Source: Flavobacteriaceae bacterium (GTDB taxonomy: Bacteria > Bacteroidota > Bacteroidia > Flavobacteriales > Flavobacteriaceae). Taken from it: a DNA stretch of 64,000 bases. Location of the stretch: contig CANGWK010000001.1 of NCBI GenBank assembly GCA_947457615.1, positions 1-64,000 on the forward strand, read 5' to 3'. Of this stretch, positions 8,605-31,165 are shown in pieces. Under the pieces are notes generated by a model, which saw only the letters and a list, made by a program, of their open reading frames with translations, was not told where the DNA came from and made no database searches. Both the position numbers and the translations under genes were made by a program. The number at the start of each line of letters is the position of its first letter. Positions within the stretch are counted from its first letter, which is position 1.

Positions 8605-9407
8605 GAGTGAAGTAATATAAAGTGTTCCCGGTTTTCATTTTCGGTAAACGGATTTTTAAAATCGGAAACATCCAATAAAGAAATGTTTCGTATGTATTTG
8701 TAGGTTATTTGATAAAAAGCATCATTTTCTGAAATTGAACCAAGAAATTGCAAAATAAAATTCTCAGGATTTAGCTGCAATTGTTCCGCAATAAAAAGTA
8801 TGTAATAAATAAAATCTTCGGGAGTTTTATATTCAAAAGAATTAAATAAATGCAACTTCTGATTTTGAACTACAATTATTTCAAAATGATTTTCATTTAC
8901 ATGCACAAACATTTTTCTTTCTTCTTTGTTTTTAGATAAATCTAACAATTTAGATACTAGAATGGTAGTAGCATGTTTATAATCAAAAGAACCATATTGA
9001 TCAATAAAAAAATTATTCATGTTTACATAAGGAATATAAACAAGGTTCATTTCATATTTATCTAAAGCATCAAAAGTAAAAAAATCGGTTTCAAAAACCT
9101 TAGTATTAAATTGTAAATAACTACCTATAAACTCTTCGTCAAATAATGCTGTTGGTACAAATGTGGAAAGATTGTTGCTGTGAATAACAAGAATTTCATC
9201 ATAGTTATTTTTCAATTCAGTATTTAAACTAAAAACAGATTCTAATAAATCTTCCATCTTAACACTGCGATTCAAATTAGAAAAAGGCAGCTTCTTTAAA
9301 ACTATTGGATTATTATTTAAAGTGTCAAAAATACAAAACGACAAAGCATTCAATGAAATTTGAATGGTGAGTTTTTTATAGGTTTTGTCGGTGATGCTTG
9401 TTGTCAT
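8601..9407 (-). CDS. DUF3822 family protein
   Basis: Typical position directly upstream of rsmD in flavobacteria; 4-bp overlap; family assigned by recall. Confidence 0.7.
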   Translation of the reverse strand: MTTSITDKTYKKLTIQISLNALSFCIFDTLNNNPIVLKKLPFSNLNRSVKMEDLLESVFSLNTELKNNYDEILVIHSNNLSTFVPTALFDEEFIGSYLQFNTKVFETDFFTFDALDKYEMNLVYIPYVNMNNFFIDQYGSFDYKHATTILVSKLLDLSKNKEERKMFVHVNENHFEIIVVQNQKLHLFNSFEYKTPEDFIYYILFIAEQLQLNPENFILQFLGSISENDAFYQITYKYIRNISLLDVSDFKNPFTENENREHFILLHS

Positions 9408-20359: not shown

Positions 20360-21664
20360 TTAATTAATAATTGTTCTACTTATCAAAAACTGTTTAAGTT
20401 GGTTGTAGTTTTTAATTTTTACTTTAATTTTATCTTTTCCTAATACACTTTCAATTTGTTTAGGAATTTCTAATGTAATATTTAAAACGGGTTCTACAAC
20501 ATCCAAGAACTTTATTGGATGTGCTGTTTCAAGAAATACTCCAATGCTATTAGGATGGTTTTTTAGTTCTTTTTTCAATCCTAAATAGCCAACTGCTCCG
20601 TGGGATTCTGCAACATATCCAGTATTCGAATATATTTTTTGCATTTCGATTTTTGTTTCTTCATCAGTAAAAGAATAGGATGAAAAATCTTTAATAAATT
20701 CATTTAAATCATTGTTGTACATTTCTTGAATACGAATAAAATTACTCGGATTGCCAACATCCATAGCGTTCGAAATAGTTGCTTCAGATGGTTTAGCATT
20801 ATAAATTCCGTTTTCTAAAAACTTAGGAACCGTATCGTTTATATTAGTTGACGCTACAAAATGGGTAATTGGCAACCCCATTTTTTTTGCTAAAATTCCA
20901 GCACAGATATTACCAAAATTGCCACTTGGGCAGGAAACAATTAATGGTTTATTATGTTTTTTTAATTCTTTGTAAGAAAAGAAAAAGTAAAACATTTGAG
21001 GCAACCAACGGGCAATATTAATAGAATTTGCAGAAGTAAGATTTTTGTGTTTTAAATCCGAATCTAAAAATGCTTGCTTCACCATATCTTGGCAATCATC
21101 AAAAAAACCATCTACCTCTAAAGCGGTTATATTTTGTCCTAAAGTGGTTAACTGTCTTTCCTGAATGTCACTTACTTTTCCAGATGGGTAAAGAATTACT
21201 ACTTCTACACCTCTTACACCAAGAAAACCGCTTGCAACAGCACCACCAGTATCGCCAGATGTAGCTACAAGAACTGTGTTTTTTAGGTCTTTTCCTTTGT
21301 TAAAATAAGCCAAACACCGTGACATAAATCTGGCTCCAACGTCTTTAAACGCCATTGTTGGTCCGTGGTACAATTCTAAAGAATAGACATTTTCTTCCAC
21401 AGAAACACACGGAAAATCAAAGCATAGGGTTTCGGCAACAATTTGTTTAAGTTCTAATTCTGGAATTTCATTACCTACAAATTGTTTAATGACTTCAAAG
21501 GCAATTTCTTCGTTTGATAAACTCTCAATAGTATCAAAAAAGGATTGTGATAGTGGGGTTATTTTTTCCGGAAAATATAAGCCTCTGTCGGGTGCTAGTC
21601 CCTGAATTACTGCTTCCTGAAAAGATACCTTTACATTTTTGTTATTTAAACTATAGTAGTTCAT
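20360..21664 (-). CDS. thrC: Threonine synthase
   Basis: GPTMAFKDVGARFMSR, VATSGDTGGAVASGF, PSGNFGNICAG. Confidence 0.96.
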   Translation of the reverse strand: MNYYSLNNKNVKVSFQEAVIQGLAPDRGLYFPEKITPLSQSFFDTIESLSNEEIAFEVIKQFVGNEIPELELKQIVAETLCFDFPCVSVEENVYSLELYHGPTMAFKDVGARFMSRCLAYFNKGKDLKNTVLVATSGDTGGAVASGFLGVRGVEVVILYPSGKVSDIQERQLTTLGQNITALEVDGFFDDCQDMVKQAFLDSDLKHKNLTSANSINIARWLPQMFYFFFSYKELKKHNKPLIVSCPSGNFGNICAGILAKKMGLPITHFVASTNINDTVPKFLENGIYNAKPSEATISNAMDVGNPSNFIRIQEMYNNDLNEFIKDFSSYSFTDEETKIEMQKIYSNTGYVAESHGAVGYLGLKKELKNHPNSIGVFLETAHPIKFLDVVEPVLNITLEIPKQIESVLGKDKIKVKIKNYNQLKQFLISRTIIN

Positions 21665-21731: not shown

Positions 21732-22652
21732 TTAAATTATTGAAACTCCAATTGGATTTATTTTTGAAATATGAATATCAGAGGGAATTCCTGTATTTAG
21801 ATATTCTTCGGTCATAGCAATAGCAACCTTTTCGGCTACAGCCAAACCTTTGCACAAAGCAAAAATTGATGGTCCTGCGCCAGAAATTCCTGCTCCTAAA
21901 GCGCCATGATGCATTGCTGTGAATTTTACTTGATCAAAATTAGGTATTAAATGTTTTCTTAGTGGTTCTACTATAACATCTTGTAAGGAACGTCCTATTA
22001 ATTCGTAATCTTTAGTGTATAATCCTGCAATTAATCCGCCTACATTTCCCCATTGTGTTATAGCAGATTTTAAAGAAATCATGGGTTGTAAAACTGCTCG
22101 TGAATCGGATGTTTTTACTTCAATTTGAGGATGCAAAACAACCGCAAAAAGTTCTTCGGGACTATCAATCCTAATAATGTCTAATGGATTATAACCTCTA
22201 ACTAATGTGAAGCCACCCAATAGGCAAGGAGCAACATTATCAGCATGTTCACTTCCGCTTGCAACTACTTCGCCTATCATGGCAAATTCAACTAATTCTT
22301 TTCTTGTAAAAGGTTTTCCTAGTAATTCATTTATTCCAAAAACTGCTCCTGCGGCGCTAGCAGATGAGCTACCAATGCCACTTCCAGCTTTAATTTTTTT
22401 ATGAATTTCAATTTCAAATCCATATTCCGAATCGATTTTATTTATTAATGCTAATGCCGCAACTCCTGCCACATTTTTTTCGGCTTCCAAAGGTAAATCG
22501 GCTCCAGTTATTTTGGTAATTCGGATGTCTTTTTCCTTTACTTTTCGGATAATCATTTCATCACCAATGGTTTCTAGACATAAGCCTAAAACGTCAAATC
22601 CACAGGATAGATTAGCTATAGTTGCGGGACAGAATATTTTAATATCAGTCAT
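21732..22652 (-). CDS. thrB: Homoserine kinase (GHMP family)
   Basis: PATIANLSCGFDVLGLCL, GSGIGSSSASAAGAV, GALGAGISGAGPSIFAL. Confidence 0.96.
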   Translation of the reverse strand: MTDIKIFCPATIANLSCGFDVLGLCLETIGDEMIIRKVKEKDIRITKITGADLPLEAEKNVAGVAALALINKIDSEYGFEIEIHKKIKAGSGIGSSSASAAGAVFGINELLGKPFTRKELVEFAMIGEVVASGSEHADNVAPCLLGGFTLVRGYNPLDIIRIDSPEELFAVVLHPQIEVKTSDSRAVLQPMISLKSAITQWGNVGGLIAGLYTKDYELIGRSLQDVIVEPLRKHLIPNFDQVKFTAMHHGALGAGISGAGPSIFALCKGLAVAEKVAIAMTEEYLNTGIPSDIHISKINPIGVSII

Positions 22653-22744: not shown

Positions 22745-25192
22745 TTACACATTTCCAATTCGAATTACATCGGCAAAAATACCTGATGCGGTAACCGCTG
22801 CGCCAGCACCGGCACCTTTAATTAATAGAGGTTGATCTACATATCTATCAGTATAAAACTGAACGATATTGTCTTTTCCTTCCAAATTATAAAAAGGGCT
22901 GTCGCTAGGAATAAATTGTAAACCAACACTTGCTTTTCCGTTTTCGAACGAAGCCACAAATTTTAATCGAGACTCTTTAGATTTAGCTTCTGCTAAAAGG
23001 TTCTCAAAATGCCCGGAATGTTTTGTTAAGGATTTAAAGAAAGTATCATTAGTAGTAGTTTCTATACATTCTATAGGAAGAAACGAATTGTTTGTAATAT
23101 CTTCCATTTCCATTGGATATCCACTTTCTCGAATCAAAATTAGAATTTTTCTAGCAACATCTACACCACTTAAATCTATTTTTGGATCAGGTTCAGTAAA
23201 TCCTTGTACACCTGCTTCTTTTACAACGTCGTGAAAGTTATAAGTTTCGCTAAAATTATTGAAAATAAAGTTTAAACTTCCCGATAATACTGCATTAATT
23301 CTATTTACTTTATCTCCTGATGCAATTAAGTGTTTTAACGTATCAATGATTGGTAAACCTGCACCAACATTAGTTTCAAATAAGAAAGGTGCATTGTACT
23401 TTCGAGACAACGATTTTAGATATTTGTAATTGTCATATTGAGACGAACACGCTATTTTATTACACGTTACGACTGCAATATTTTGTTTTAAAAACTGGTC
23501 GTAAATAGAGGCAATATCTTCATTTGCAGTGATATCCACAAAAATACTATTTCGTAAATTCAGTTCTTTTGCTTTAGCTATAAATTGATTTACATTGGCA
23601 GTTCCACCATTTTCTAATAACGGTTTCCAATCTTTTAGTTGTATTCCTTCTTCGTTAAAAAACATTTTTCTAGAATTGGAAATAGCAACTACACGAAGGT
23701 TTATTTTTAAATTTTCCTTTAAGAATTTCTTTTGTTGGTGAATTTGATCGATGAATTTTTCACCTACATTTCCAACCCCCATAACAAATAAATTCAACTG
23801 TTTAGTATTGTCTTCAAAGAAACGTTCGTGCAAAGTATTTAATGCTTTCTTGACGTCTTTTTCGTTAATAACTACTGATATATTTCTTTCGGATGCACCT
23901 TGTGCAATAGCACGAATATTAACATTGTTTTTCCCTAAAGTACTGAACATTTTACCGCTCAATCCTTGGTGGTTTTTCATGCTTTCACCAACCAAAGCAA
24001 CAATGCACAATTCGTTTTCAACAATGCAAGGATCGATTTTATTTTGAGCAATTTCTAGTTCAAAGATGGAGTCAATTGCAGTTTTGGCTTTGTGGGCATC
24101 CTGATTTTGAATTCCAATACAAATAGAATGCTCGGAAGAGGCTTGAGTGATAAAAATTACATTGATATTTTCTCTCGAAAGCACTTCAAATAGTCTTTTG
24201 GATGAACCGGCAATACCAATCATTCCAGATCCTTCCAAAGTTAGAAGTGCAATAGTATCAATATGTGAAATCCCCTTTATTGGATTTGCATTAGCATCAG
24301 GACTATTAGAAATTAAAGTTCCGTAAGCATCTGGATCAAAAGTGTTTTTAATCCAAATAGGAATTGCAGCATTCAAAACAGGTTGAATAGTTGGAGGATA
24401 CAAAACTTTGGCGCCAAAATGAGACAATTCCATTGCTTCTTGATAGGAAATAGACTCAATTGGTTGCGCTTGTTTAACAATTTTGGGGTTAGCAGTAAAC
24501 ATACCGTTCACATCTGTCCAAATTTCTAAAGATACTGCTTTCAATCCATTAGCAAGAATGGCCGCTGAATAATCGGATCCACCGCGCCCTAAAGTAGTGG
24601 TGTTTCCATCTTCAGATGAAGCAATAAATCCAGGCAAAACGACGACTTGAGAAGTATTGGAACTGAAATAATTTGAAATCAATGTATTAGAAACTGAAAA
24701 ATCAACGACAGCTTTACCAAAATTAGAATTGGTAATAATCAATTCTCTGCTATCCTTAAAAGTACTATTTGGGAGACTTTGTTGCAAAGCAGTTGCAATA
24801 ATTTGAGAAGATAATAATTCTCCAAAACCAGCAATAGCATCAGCTGTTCTAGGTGACAATTCCCCTAAAAGAAAACAACCATCTAATAATGTTTGCAATT
24901 GATTAATTTGACTATTAATTTTTATTAAAAGTGTATTTTGATTCGATGTTTCAACTAATTCGGTAATCGTAACAAAGTGTTTTTGCTTTATCTCATCTAA
25001 AACAACTTTATAAACTTCGTCTTTATTTGCAGCTTTTTCAGATGCATTAAGAAGCATGTCGGTAACGCCGCTTAGCGCAGAAACTACTACTGCAAGTTTA
25101 TTTTCTTTAGCTTTTTGGTTAACGATTTGGATAACCTTTTGGATATTTTGGGCATTGGCAACAGAAGTTCCACCAAATTTTAATACTATCAT
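22745..25192 (-). CDS. thrA: Bifunctional aspartate kinase / homoserine dehydrogenase
   Basis: N-terminal VLKFGGTSVANAQNI, ACT region, C-terminal FVMGVGNVGEKFI ... VLSGSLNFIFN ... GVQGFTEPDPKIDLSGVDVARK. Confidence 0.96.
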   Translation of the reverse strand: MIVLKFGGTSVANAQNIQKVIQIVNQKAKENKLAVVVSALSGVTDMLLNASEKAANKDEVYKVVLDEIKQKHFVTITELVETSNQNTLLIKINSQINQLQTLLDGCFLLGELSPRTADAIAGFGELLSSQIIATALQQSLPNSTFKDSRELIITNSNFGKAVVDFSVSNTLISNYFSSNTSQVVVLPGFIASSEDGNTTTLGRGGSDYSAAILANGLKAVSLEIWTDVNGMFTANPKIVKQAQPIESISYQEAMELSHFGAKVLYPPTIQPVLNAAIPIWIKNTFDPDAYGTLISNSPDANANPIKGISHIDTIALLTLEGSGMIGIAGSSKRLFEVLSRENINVIFITQASSEHSICIGIQNQDAHKAKTAIDSIFELEIAQNKIDPCIVENELCIVALVGESMKNHQGLSGKMFSTLGKNNVNIRAIAQGASERNISVVINEKDVKKALNTLHERFFEDNTKQLNLFVMGVGNVGEKFIDQIHQQKKFLKENLKINLRVVAISNSRKMFFNEEGIQLKDWKPLLENGGTANVNQFIAKAKELNLRNSIFVDITANEDIASIYDQFLKQNIAVVTCNKIACSSQYDNYKYLKSLSRKYNAPFLFETNVGAGLPIIDTLKHLIASGDKVNRINAVLSGSLNFIFNNFSETYNFHDVVKEAGVQGFTEPDPKIDLSGVDVARKILILIRESGYPMEMEDITNNSFLPIECIETTTNDTFFKSLTKHSGHFENLLAEAKSKESRLKFVASFENGKASVGLQFIPSDSPFYNLEGKDNIVQFYTDRYVDQPLLIKGAGAGAAVTASGIFADVIRIGNV

Positions 25193-25215
25193 TATTATTT
25201 TTTTATTTTGAAATT

Positions 25216-25266
25216 ACATATAAAATTAAATTCTTTCATTTGAAAGGCCTAGAATGGATTATATGT
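25216..25266 (-). promoter_or_regulatory. Putative terminator/anti-expression structure between thr leader and thrA
   Basis: ACATATAA/TTATATGT 8-bp stem (25216-25223 with 25259-25266) enclosing the CTTTC-ATTT-GAAAG hairpin (25233-25246), followed on the minus strand by a U-rich stretch. Confidence 0.5.
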
Positions 25267-25270
25267 GAAA

Positions 25271-25378
25271 TTATACCCCTAACGGGGTTGTAGTTGTTGT
25301 AGTGTATGTGCTAACAAAAATAGCAACCCTTGACGAGGTTGTTAAGTAGGAGGAATTTATGATTTTGTTGTTCAACAT
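25271..25378 (-). CDS. thrL: Threonine operon leader peptide (35 aa, Thr-rich)
   Basis: Reverse-strand ORF MLNNKIINSSYLTTSSRVAIFVSTYTTTTTTPLGV*, 9 Thr codons including six consecutive; too short for the ORF track; 78 bp upstream of thrA. Confidence 0.85.
   Translation of the reverse strand: MLNNKIINSSYLTTSSRVAIFVSTYTTTTTTPLGV
25275..25341 (-). promoter_or_regulatory. Putative attenuator alternative-pairing region upstream of thrA
   Basis: Minus-strand order: CAACC (seg1, 25341-25337), GGGUUG (seg2, 25329-25324), CAACCC(C) (seg3, 25290-25284), GGGGU (seg4, 25279-25275). Pairs 1:2, 3:4 and the exclusive 2:3 (6/6 bp) are all possible. Confidence 0.65.
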
Positions 25379-25587
25379 ACATTTCAAAATTACTCTTTTT
25401 TGTTAATAATAAAAGTAGGAATTGTGTTTTTATGAATATAATAATTTTATCAGCAAATGACACTATTTTTATATTTTTTAAATGAATTAAAGTCTGTTTT
25501 TTATTAATTTACTAATAAAATAGTAGCTGAAATAGTTGGATTTTAATAATTGTTTGCTGAATTTTGAACTCAAATTTCAAACATAAA

Positions 25588-27096
25588 ATGCAAAATTCAC
25601 ATTATATTAGTTCAGAAGTACTTCAATTAGAGACTTTACAAGAAATAATTTCACAAAATAAGCAAATTACTCTTTCGGAAGAAGCAAAAACTGCTATTCA
25701 AAAATGTAGAGAATATTTGGATGCCAAAATGGAATCTCAGAATGCTCCAATCTACGGAATAAACACAGGTTTTGGATCGTTGTGTAATGTAATAATATCT
25801 AATGAAAACTTATCGCAGCTTCAAGAAAACCTTGTAAAATCTCATGCTTGTGGAACGGGAGAGGAAGTCCCTCGTGAGATTGTTAAGATTATGTTGCTGC
25901 TAAAAATTCAATCTTTGAGTTACGGTCATTCTGGAGTTCAATTGCTTACAGTACAAAGATTAATAGATTTTTATAATAATGATATTTTACCCGTCATCTT
26001 CAACCAAGGATCACTTGGTGCTAGCGGAGATTTGGCTCCTTTAGCACATCTTTCTCTGCCTTTAATAGGAGAGGGAGAAGTTTATTTTGAAGGAAAAAAA
26101 ATACATTCTTCAATTGTATTACAAAAATTTAACTGGCAACCTATTGTTTTACAATCTAAAGAAGGTTTGGCATTGTTGAATGGAACCCAATTTATGAGTT
26201 CTTATGGAATTTATATTTTGCTTAAAGCAATGAAATTTTCCTATTTTTCCGATGTTATTTCAGCAATTTCTTTAGAAGGTTTTGATGGAAGAATTGAGCC
26301 TTTTAATGAGTTAATTCATTACATCCGACCACATAAAGGACAGATTGTAACTGCAAAAAGAATAACTGATTTACTTGAAGATAGTGAGATTATTTATCAA
26401 GAAAAAACACAAGTTCAGGATCCATATTCATTTAGATGTATTCCTCAGGTGCATGGCGCTTCCAAAGATACTATTGATTACGTAAAAAAAGTTTTTAAGA
26501 CCGAAATTAATTCAGTTACCGATAATCCAAATATATTTATTGGAGAAGATATTATAATTTCTGGAGGTAATTTTCATGGACAACCACTAGCATTGGCGTT
26601 AGATTTTCTTGCAATTGCATTGTCTGAATTAGGAAGCATATCTGAAAGAAGAACCTACCAATTAATTTCTGGACTACGCGGTTTACCTGCATTTTTAGTT
26701 AGCAACGCTGGATTAAATTCAGGATTCATGATTCCGCAATACACTGCAGCTAGTATTGCAAGCCAAAACAAACAATTGGCAACTCCAGCAAGTGTAGACA
26801 GCATAGTTTCTAGTAACGGACAAGAAGATCATGTGTCAATGGGAGCAAATGCTGCTACAAAATGTTTACGTATTATGGAAAATTTAGAGCGCATTTTAGC
26901 CATCGAGTTAATGAATGCATCGCAAGCAATTGAATTTAGACGACCATTAAAATCAAGTGATTTTATTGAAATGTTTTTGAAATCCTACAGAGAGGAAGTT
27001 CCTTTTGTTAAAGAAGATAGAATATTACATTATGATATCCAAAAGTCTATAGCGTTTTTAAATAGTTTTATGATTGATGATGAGATTGATAATTGA
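25588..27096 (+). CDS. hutH: Histidine ammonia-lyase (HAL/PAL family)
   Basis: GINTGFGSLCN, SHACGTGEEVP, GSLGASGDLAPLAHLSLPLIGEGEV (MIO ASG triad), DNPNIF; ATG 25588 preferred to the track TTG 25564. Confidence 0.9.
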   Translation: MQNSHYISSEVLQLETLQEIISQNKQITLSEEAKTAIQKCREYLDAKMESQNAPIYGINTGFGSLCNVIISNENLSQLQENLVKSHACGTGEEVPREIVKIMLLLKIQSLSYGHSGVQLLTVQRLIDFYNNDILPVIFNQGSLGASGDLAPLAHLSLPLIGEGEVYFEGKKIHSSIVLQKFNWQPIVLQSKEGLALLNGTQFMSSYGIYILLKAMKFSYFSDVISAISLEGFDGRIEPFNELIHYIRPHKGQIVTAKRITDLLEDSEIIYQEKTQVQDPYSFRCIPQVHGASKDTIDYVKKVFKTEINSVTDNPNIFIGEDIIISGGNFHGQPLALALDFLAIALSELGSISERRTYQLISGLRGLPAFLVSNAGLNSGFMIPQYTAASIASQNKQLATPASVDSIVSSNGQEDHVSMGANAATKCLRIMENLERILAIELMNASQAIEFRRPLKSSDFIEMFLKSYREEVPFVKEDRILHYDIQKSIAFLNSFMIDDEIDN

Positions 27097-28244: not shown

Positions 28245-28255
28245 TTAACAAATAT

Positions 28256-29623
28256 TTAGTCGTGGAAAATTGCTGAAGTAGTTGGTGCTGGAGTAGCATT
28301 TATAGTATTTCCCGTAGATGTAGCCGAACAAGAATTTGTGTTGGTAACAATAACAGTGTAATCTCCAGATGTTGTAGCTGTAATTGAAGAAGTTGTTGCT
28401 CCAGTTCCAGTATAGTTTACTCCGTTTAATTGCCATTGGTAATTTAATCCAACTCCTGTATTTGCATTTAATACAACACTTCCTCCTGTACAAAATGTAG
28501 TTGCAGTTGCTGGAGTAATTGTTGCAGTTGGCAATGGATTAACAGCTACCGTAGTGCTTGAAGATGTAGCTGAACAAATATTTGTGTTGGTAACAATAAC
28601 AGTATAATCTCCAGATGTTGTAGCTGTAATTGAAGAAGTTGTTGCTCCAGTTCCAGTATAGTTTACTCCGTTTAATTGCCATTGGTAAGTTAATCCTGTT
28701 CCAGTATTAGCATTTAATACAACACTTCCTCCAGTACAGAATGTAGTTGCAGTTGCTGGGGTTATTGTTGCAGTTGGCAATGGATTAATAGTTACCGTAG
28801 TGCTTGAAGATGTAGCTGAACAAAAATTTGTGTTGGTAACAATAACAGTGTAATCTCCAGATGTTGTTGCTGTAATAGATGAAGTTGTTGCTCCAGTTCC
28901 AGTATAATTTACTCCGTCTAATTGCCATTGGTAAGTTAATCCTGTTCCTGTATTAGCATTCAATACAACACTTCCTCCGGTACAGAATGTAATTGCAGTT
29001 GCTGCAGAAATTGTTGCTGTTGGCAATGGATTAACTGTTACAGTGGTGCTTGAAGATGTAGCTGAACAAGAATTTGTATTGGTAACAATAACAGTGTAAT
29101 CTCCAGATGTTGTTGCTGTAATAGATGAAGTTGTTGCTCCAGTTCCAGTATAATTTACGCCGTTTAATTGCCATTGGTAAGTTAATCCTGTTCCTGTATT
29201 TGCATTTAATACAACACTTCCTCCAGTACAGAATGTAGTTGCAGTTGCTGCATTAATTGTTGCAGTTGGCAATGGATTAACTGTTACAGCCAATGTAACT
29301 TCATTTGCGACACAACCAGTTGCAGTAGTAGTTTCAACAACATGAACAACATAACTTCCTGGTAAAGTAGTAGACCAATTAATGGTTGTGGTATTTCCTC
29401 CATTAGAAATTGGAGTTGGAACTGGGTTAGATCCTGATGTAGTTATAGTCCAATTGTAGGTAGAACCTGGTGTTCCAGATGGCGTGTCTACAGCATAATT
29501 ACGAATTCCAGTGCCTTGACAAAAGTTTTCTGTGATTGCTGAATTCGTTTGAGAATTCATACTCGTTAAGGATCCAAGTAATAAGATCAGGAAAAAGAAG
29601 TTTTTTTTAATAATTGTTTTCAT
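28256..29623 (-). CDS. Secreted Ig/PKD-like tandem-repeat protein without recognised sorting domain
   Basis: Signal peptide MKTIIKKNFFFLILLLGSLTSMNSQ; four about 82-aa repeats (TATI.AATATTFCTGGSVVLNANTGTGLTYQWQLNGVNYTGTGATTSSITATTSGDYTVIVTNTN); ends PAPTTSAIFHD. Confidence 0.85.
   Translation of the reverse strand: MKTIIKKNFFFLILLLGSLTSMNSQTNSAITENFCQGTGIRNYAVDTPSGTPGSTYNWTITTSGSNPVPTPISNGGNTTTINWSTTLPGSYVVHVVETTTATGCVANEVTLAVTVNPLPTATINAATATTFCTGGSVVLNANTGTGLTYQWQLNGVNYTGTGATTSSITATTSGDYTVIVTNTNSCSATSSSTTVTVNPLPTATISAATAITFCTGGSVVLNANTGTGLTYQWQLDGVNYTGTGATTSSITATTSGDYTVIVTNTNFCSATSSSTTVTINPLPTATITPATATTFCTGGSVVLNANTGTGLTYQWQLNGVNYTGTGATTSSITATTSGDYTVIVTNTNICSATSSSTTVAVNPLPTATITPATATTFCTGGSVVLNANTGVGLNYQWQLNGVNYTGTGATTSSITATTSGDYTVIVTNTNSCSATSTGNTINATPAPTTSAIFHD
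28313..29290 (-). repeat. In-frame tandem repeat array, period 246 bp (82 aa), about 4 units
   Basis: Marker word gcaatgg recurs at 28531, 28777, 29023 and 29269, exactly 246 bp apart, with near-identical sequence between. Confidence 0.92.
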
Positions 29624-29644
29624 TTTTTTTATTTTAATTTTTAT

Positions 29645-31165
29645 TTATTGATGATATATTAAGGTTGTTGAGGGGTTTGGATTTACGGTAATAGTACAAG
29701 ACCCAGTCGTGCTACAACCAGAAGTAGTTTTAGCGGTTGCAGTGTAGATTTTGGTAATTGTAGGTTTAGCGTAAAGTGTTGTAGTATTAGTTCCTGTAGT
29801 ATAAGCACTAGTAGCACTTGAATTTGTATATAAACCACTTACAGGTGTCCAGGTAATTGGATTAGTTGTAACAGTTGGAAAACCAAATTGAATATTTGGT
29901 CTCTTCTTTGAAACACTACTAAAGAAAGTACCAGTTGTAAGTGAAGTTGAGTCAAAGCCTGATATTCCAACTCCAGCATCGTCTTTCATTGTATAATAAG
30001 TTGAATTTTCAGAAGTAGAAGTATATCTTGTATAAGTTCCATCCCCGTTACCTGTATTATTTGAATTATGTACAAACTCTACTATAATATTTTCTCCTGT
30101 CCATACAAATATTGTTGCTAGTGAAAAATTAACCCAGCCTGCTGCTGATGGAGTAAATGTTAACGGACCATAAACATCCGAAGTTCCTGTTTCAAAACCT
30201 GTCAACACAGTAGAATTAGTATTTTTCATTCTAATCGTTAAATCAGTACAATCGCTTGAAACAAAGTTATTAACATACAGTCCTACTGATGAAATTGTTC
30301 CTCCATTAACTAATCCAATAGCTGTTAATTCTGCTGCAGTATATATCATTTGAACCTTAGTCCCTCCATACCAGGAATTTAATGGATTTGGTCCGTAACT
30401 AAGTGGACTTATAACATTATTACTTGTTCCTATAATATTTGTTGTATTAGTAATGCTAGTTCCTCCACTTGTTGTTAAAGCTGTAATTGTTCCCTCACAA
30501 ACTGTTGCTGTTGAAGGGGTAACACTAACATTTTGAGGAGGTGTACAAGAAATACTACCATTAAAAGCAACATCATCTATCCTTACAAATCCAGTACTTG
30601 ATGCTCCGTAAAAATATATTCTATAAGTAACTGCAGAAAATGAATTTCCAGTTAATGGAATGGTTTTTGTAACATAGGTTGTTGATATTGTACCCGTAGA
30701 AAGATCAGAAACAAATGAATCTACACTTGATCTAATAGAAAAACTAGTTGCCCCACTTGTAGTTCTGCTAATTCGAAATGTAATAGAACTTAAATTTAAA
30801 TAATATCCTGAATTAGGGGTTACAGAAAACTCCTCATACATATTAGTATTAATAACAGAACCAAAGTCTCCTGTAGATGGTTTAACTGAAAATACATTAT
30901 CATCAATTGAAGATTGAGCATTTATTGTTAAAATATTTTTATTATAAGTTGAAAATGAAACATTTGAAGCCACATTGCTTGCTAATAATCTTGATGCTGG
31001 ACCAGTAGATGTTGAAAGTCCTGTAAATGTGTAGTTCCCTAATAATGTCTGCCCGTTAATTTCTTCACATACGAACACTAAAACCAATAATAAAAATATA
31101 CGAAAAAAAACCTTCTCATTTGAAAGCTTTTCATTATATCTTTTTATTTTAAATAAAGTGATCAA
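29645..31165 (-). CDS. Secreted adhesin-like protein without recognised sorting domain
   Basis: Hydrophobic N-terminus (FFRIFLLLVLVFVCEEINGQ), Thr/Ser-rich beta modules, ends PNPSTTLIYHQ. Confidence 0.75.
   Translation of the reverse strand: MITLFKIKRYNEKLSNEKVFFRIFLLLVLVFVCEEINGQTLLGNYTFTGLSTSTGPASRLLASNVASNVSFSTYNKNILTINAQSSIDDNVFSVKPSTGDFGSVINTNMYEEFSVTPNSGYYLNLSSITFRISRTTSGATSFSIRSSVDSFVSDLSTGTISTTYVTKTIPLTGNSFSAVTYRIYFYGASSTGFVRIDDVAFNGSISCTPPQNVSVTPSTATVCEGTITALTTSGGTSITNTTNIIGTSNNVISPLSYGPNPLNSWYGGTKVQMIYTAAELTAIGLVNGGTISSVGLYVNNFVSSDCTDLTIRMKNTNSTVLTGFETGTSDVYGPLTFTPSAAGWVNFSLATIFVWTGENIIVEFVHNSNNTGNGDGTYTRYTSTSENSTYYTMKDDAGVGISGFDSTSLTTGTFFSSVSKKRPNIQFGFPTVTTNPITWTPVSGLYTNSSATSAYTTGTNTTTLYAKPTITKIYTATAKTTSGCSTTGSCTITVNPNPSTTLIYHQ

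Follow-up and report, generated by a model that had tools for sequence, protein, structure and literature searches.

A conserved threonine leader peptide ahead of thrABC in Flavobacteriaceae: a probable ribosome-mediated attenuator without an intrinsic terminator

The thrABC operon of a Flavobacteriaceae bacterium (GenBank assembly GCA_947457615.1, contig CANGWK010000001.1) is preceded by a short, threonine-rich leader ORF that is conserved in most of its relatives. We consider it highly probable that thrABC is controlled by a ribosome-mediated attenuator with this leader as its sensor, and that the output is most likely exerted on transcription without the help of an intrinsic terminator. The features on which this reading is based are collected in Table 1; positions refer to the window, i.e., the whole 64,000-nucleotide stretch of DNA that was analysed.

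Table 1. Features of the thr leader region and the operon behind it
Feature	Position	Strand	Basis or remark
Sigma-A promoter box TAATTTTG (TAnnTTTG)	25385..25392	minus	sequence; box position from PMC9723704
thrL-like leader peptide ORF	25271..25378	minus	sequence and conservation
Hairpin P0 (CAACCT/GGGTTG), inside ORF, upstream of Thr run	25324..25341	minus	covariation
Six-Thr codon run (ACT ACA ACA ACT ACA ACC)	25286..25303	minus	sequence; overlaps 5′ arm of P1
Hairpin P1 (ACCCC-GTTA-GGGGT), over last codons up to stop	25275..25288	minus	conservation
Conserved single-strand motif CATATAATCC (CATATMATCC in relatives)	25256..25265	minus	conservation
Outer helix P4 (ACATATAA/TTATATGT), enclosing P3	25216..25266	minus	some relatives only
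Hairpin P3 (CTTTC/GAAAG), no U-tract behind	25233..25246	minus	covariation
A-rich, G-poor linker to thrA start	25193..25232	minus	length varies between species
thrA, bifunctional aspartate kinase/homoserine dehydrogenase I (NF006959)	22745..25192	minus	curated model match
thrB, homoserine kinase (TIGR00191)	21732..22652	minus	curated model match
thrC, threonine synthase (TIGR00260)	20360..21664	minus	curated model match

The ORF runs from an ATG at 25378 to a TAA ending at 25271 and encodes the 35-amino acid peptide MLNNKIINSSYLTTSSRVAIFVSTYTTTTTTPLGV, in which nine codons specify Thr, six of them consecutively; 78 nt separate its stop from the ATG of thrA at 25192. The original prediction of a 36-codon ORF (stop included) with nine Thr codons, a run of six, and a distance of 78 bp to thrA was correct in every detail, as was its placement upstream of thrA-thrB-thrC. 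All three genes are named by curated models. Divergent from the leader is a histidine ammonia-lyase-like gene (25564-27096; NF006871 and TIGR01225 matches above cut-off) and, further away, the genes at 28245-31165 contain near-identical repeats of ~246 nt that encode TxxTPATATTFCTGGSVVLNANTG... units of a surface-type protein.

Loci for comparison were collected via ThrA and comprised 80 named loci, 30 loci that came out of 200 surveyed genomes of Flavobacteriaceae, and more from 150 genomes of the phylum. The leader ORF is kept in 72 of the 80 Flavobacterium-type thrA loci and in 26 of 28 loci sampled from other genera of Flavobacteriaceae. Of the 80 named loci, 70 have a Thr-rich ORF whose end falls on a hairpin less than 260 nt upstream of thrA; in L017 and L019, which are among the 72, the leader is intact and lies further upstream, 0.7 kb from thrA. 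The remaining eight close loci have lost the leader or retain only remnants of it, with weak remnant scores in L010 and L041. Four of the loci (L012, L033, L048, and L058) come from metagenome-assembled genomes titled Bifidobacterium breve, Rhizobium or Klebsiella, which have Flavobacterium-type thr operons and are evidently mislabelled.

Within Flavobacterium, the control run consists of Thr codons and the peptide usually ends in TTTTTPFGV. The other genera of the family add Ile codons (TTTIIITPFGV-like and TTNITTLWGC-like endings), which fits the biosynthesis of isoleucine from threonine, itself derived from homoserine, and parallels E. coli thrL, whose control codons are those for Thr and Ile. 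Beyond Flavobacteriaceae, thrA is likewise preceded by Thr/Ile leaders in further families of the same order and class and, in another class of Bacteroidota, in family f21. When the codons of 93-96 loci were counted by frame, 890 Thr codons were found in the leader frame vs 151 and 40 in the other two, and within the leaders ACA (356), ACT (293), ACC (182), and ACG (38) are freely exchanged for one another. Given that all four Thr codons are used and swapped, and that their excess is in frame, selection acts on the codons, rather than on a DNA repeat. The comparison that the original prediction had proposed thus bears it out, in that the Thr-run ORF is conserved at the codon level in Flavobacteriaceae, as well as in other families of Bacteroidota. 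We therefore regard the sensing of Thr, and outside Flavobacterium also of Ile, by a translating ribosome as well supported. A covariance model of the leader, when searched against its own genome, matched the thr locus only (E 3.5e-12, with the next matches at E about 1), so it does not represent a general amino-acid element.

The predicted promoter of the operon precedes the ORF, and the first gene follows it on the strand shared by all three. In PMC9723704, a study of Flavobacterium psychrophilum, the TAnnTTTG box of the primary sigma factor is placed at -12 to -5; on that basis, the predicted transcription start in the window is at about 25380, just 2 nt before the leader ATG. In 93 of 96 loci, a TAnnTTTG box is found 4-22 nt ahead of the leader ATG, and in most Flavobacterium loci the distance is 4-11 nt, giving a predicted 5′ UTR of 0-7 nt. 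With the ORF starting right behind the sigma-A box, the leader mRNA is predicted to be nearly leaderless.

The RNA around and behind the codon run is structured in a conserved manner. From a plain MAFFT alignment, in which P3 is misaligned, RNAalifold recovered P1 alone; a covariance model that includes both P1 and P3 was used in its place, together with mechanical tests. The strongest covariation signal is P0: in an arm-swap test of 839 segment pairs, cognate arms paired 2.1 kcal/mol better than arms swapped between species (z -6.5), with compensatory exchanges of the types C-G/T-A and A-T/C-G/G-C. P0 is possibly a pause hairpin, well placed to keep polymerase and ribosome in step. We rejected the idea that it acts as an intragenic terminator; CTATTTTTG stands behind it in the window, but most relatives have no U-tract there. 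Within 25303-25384 (minus strand), the beginning of the transcript near the leader ATG covaries weakly with the start of the Thr run in the window and its relatives (z about -3.9), and a further alternative pairing between the two is possible.

P1 (ACCCC-n4-GGGGT) extends over the last Thr codon and the final part of the ORF, and its pairs are almost invariant. In every case it shares nucleotides with the end of the Thr or Thr/Ile run, and a ribosome stalled there would have to open it. CATATMATCC follows about 10 nt after the stop codon; in Flavobacterium, it is able to pair with GGGGTATA when P1 cannot form. Support for this competing helix, GGGGTATA:TATAATCC, is confined to Flavobacterium and, since P1 itself hardly varies, covariation does not prove the switch. 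Pairing with the 3′ arm of P1 accounts for the conservation of the motif in Flavobacterium only, and we discarded it as a general explanation, because the motif is retained in loci in which GGGGTATA has changed to GGGGTTTA; its persistence where the GGGGTATA:TATAATCC pairing is weak indicates an additional role. The sequence of P3 varies freely, and the hairpin was found in 90 of 96 loci, vs 32 expected from shuffles. All six of its pairs have changes on both sides, with 82 such cells compared to 22 in shuffles, a count that is flattered by the structure-fitted alignment. P0, P1, CATATMATCC, and P3 are common to Flavobacteriaceae, f21, f2, and part of f4.

We searched the 130 nt after the leader stop for intrinsic terminators, with a scanner that requires a stem of at least 6 pairs and a U-tract behind it. 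None of 96 thr leaders has such a terminator between the leader and thrA, and only 6 of 94 P3 stems have at least 5 T among the 8 nt that follow. With the same scanner, an intrinsic terminator was detected in all 14 of the hisG leaders scanned, one from this genome and the others from relatives. These bacteria therefore do use terminator-based attenuation, and the scanner is able to detect it, yet the thr leader is without it.

The hisG leader of this genome encodes MKKFFSQIHHHHSCKQAS and ends in the terminator AAAAACCGTCTGAG-TGTA-CTTAGACGGTTTTT. It is the unannotated L153 (G000:C40, near 8642-9106), one of the unannotated His leaders with a canonical intrinsic terminator (L143-L156), further downstream of which lies a stretch complementary to the 5′ arm of the terminator. 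The hisG attenuator of Flavobacterium resembles the thr leader in that a short ORF, again with consecutive control codons, lies before an amino-acid operon and behind a TAnnTTTG box. It differs in its strong canonical terminator, and in that the ORF starts 17-35 nt behind the box, compared to 4-11 nt in most Flavobacterium thr leaders.

From these elements, we infer the following course of events. A ribosome would load at once onto the nearly leaderless transcript and trail the RNA polymerase, which probably pauses after P0. When Thr-tRNA is ample, the ribosome would pass the Thr codons to the stop and leave, P1 would form, and most transcripts would end before thrA. When Thr-tRNA is scarce, the ribosome would stall in the Thr run and cover the 5′ arm of P1; P1 would be blocked and transcription would continue into thrABC. 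In Flavobacterium, the GGGGTATA freed by a stalled ribosome that holds P1 open could then pair with the TATAATCC of the conserved motif.

As to how transcripts would end, Rho, for example, could act on the uncovered, C-rich and G-poor RNA of the leader and linker at a pause behind P3. The genome has a rho gene (TIGR00767, E 4e-193), and the linker contains 15.4% C and 6.7% G (16.8% and 3.3% in other genera) vs 11.6% and 10.3% upstream of other genes in the window. Both observations are suggestive only, because Thr codons contain C by nature and rho is nearly universal, and we therefore name Rho tentatively, at somewhat short of an even chance of being the output factor. A precedent for such an output is the tnaC type of leader, which has no intrinsic terminator and where a ribosome stalled on the leader keeps Rho off, leading to read-through. 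The proposal made here shares with tnaC the stalled ribosome that would exclude Rho and the absence of an intrinsic terminator. The signal would be different, however: tnaC senses free Trp through its nascent peptide, whereas the thr leader would respond to a lack of charged tRNA at its codon run, and the part played by Rho in the latter is putative.

The absence of a terminator would also be expected if attenuation were translational, i.e., if translation of the leader altered the folding at the thrA start codon, and hence thrA translation, without any premature termination. A stop-to-thrA distance that is mostly 70-110 nt is also in keeping with this explanation. However, the predicted accessibility of the thrA start is 0.63 with the ribosome stalled, 0.64 with the ribosome terminated, and 0.62 with the ribosome absent (80 loci), and we accordingly rejected sequestration of the thrA start, as its predicted accessibility does not change with ribosome position. 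Moreover, the linker is not kept at a fixed length. Linkers of up to about 200 nt occur, and insertions of about 100 nt are tolerated in several clades; in L009, L014, L016, L021, and L059-L079, the stretch between P3 and thrA has been lengthened, partly by aactcataactcataac-like runs, while the leader part is unchanged. In L017 (1991-2407) and L019 (1970-2404), an entire gene for a PDDEXK_3 (GxxExxY-type) nuclease-like protein is located between the intact thr leader and thrA, and no TAnnTTTG box was found within the insert of either locus. The variable linker, the inserted gene without a promoter box of its own, and the unchanged accessibility of the thrA start together favour transcription over translation as the level of control, and we consider translational attenuation unlikely.

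Still less probable is a classical attenuator of the E. coli thrL kind, in which an intrinsic terminator would separate the leader from thrA. The sensor half is the same: E. coli thrL (Rfam Thr_leader, RF00506) likewise has a short leader ORF with a Thr run, plus the Ile codons seen outside Flavobacterium, in front of thrA-thrB-thrC with a bifunctional ThrA. In addition, canonical terminators do end the thr leaders of f3 (3/3) and L158 of f4, and the Thr/Ile leaders L160, L162, L165 (another Bacteroidota family), and L158 show that the phylum has two output types for the same sensor. Against this stand the counts of 0/96 and 14/14 and the rarity of T-rich stretches behind P3 given above. The flavobacterial leader also departs from E. 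coli thrL in its nearly leaderless start and in its hairpins, with P1 over the stop codon, CATATMATCC, and P3. Neither the window, searched at gathering score, nor the leader region, searched at E up to 5, matched RF00506, and no relevant Rfam family was found in either. As the intrinsic terminator is a defining feature, the leader falls outside the classical attenuator class. The suggestion of "classical" Thr attenuation in the original prediction hence holds for the leader peptide, which is strongly supported by codon-level conservation, but is not supported for the output.

It is very improbable that the ORF encodes a functional small protein with no regulatory role. Its conservation, and its constant length in Flavobacterium, would be compatible with a protein, but the peptide is unconserved outside the Thr/Ile run and the P1-encoded end, matches none of the protein family models, and is followed by non-coding RNA into which the conservation runs on. 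A chance ORF in an AT-rich intergenic region can be dismissed, as it is refuted by conservation in about 100 loci and as none of 2000 dinucleotide shuffles of the 371-nt intergenic region contained an ORF with a run of six Thr (nine Thr were reached in 4 of 2000).

To return to the terminator-less attenuator, our fullest version of it is a conserved module (P0, P1 over the stop, CATATMATCC, and P3) on a nearly leaderless mRNA that responds to Thr/Ile in Flavobacteriaceae and some other Bacteroidota, has a Rho-dependent or otherwise non-classical output, and exists beside two terminator-based systems, namely its counterpart in sister families and the his attenuator of the same cell. We hold this version, with all of its parts taken together, to have about an even chance of being right.

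Attenuation of the threonine operon has been catalogued from gammaproteobacteria (Rfam Thr_leader), and a comparative study of attenuation (Lopatovskaya et al., 2010) is cited in PMC4833913. Leader-peptide attenuation before amino-acid operons has been reported, in general terms, for F. psychrophilum, with elements at pheA and hisG that are conserved beyond the species, and those leader peptides resemble the one described here in belonging to the same bacterial family and in lying upstream of amino-acid biosynthesis operons; the main text of that report makes no mention of thrA (PMC9723704). As leader-peptide attenuation was already on record in flavobacteria, its occurrence in the phylum is not in itself new; we found no description of a thr leader in Bacteroidota in the open-licence literature. 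The conservation of a thr leader across Bacteroidota shows the attenuation principle to be far more widespread. Furthermore, the terminator-based his leader and the terminator-less thr leader of the same cells offer a clean comparison for the output step, and the pair bears on the extent of transcription-translation coupling and of Rho use in Bacteroidota.
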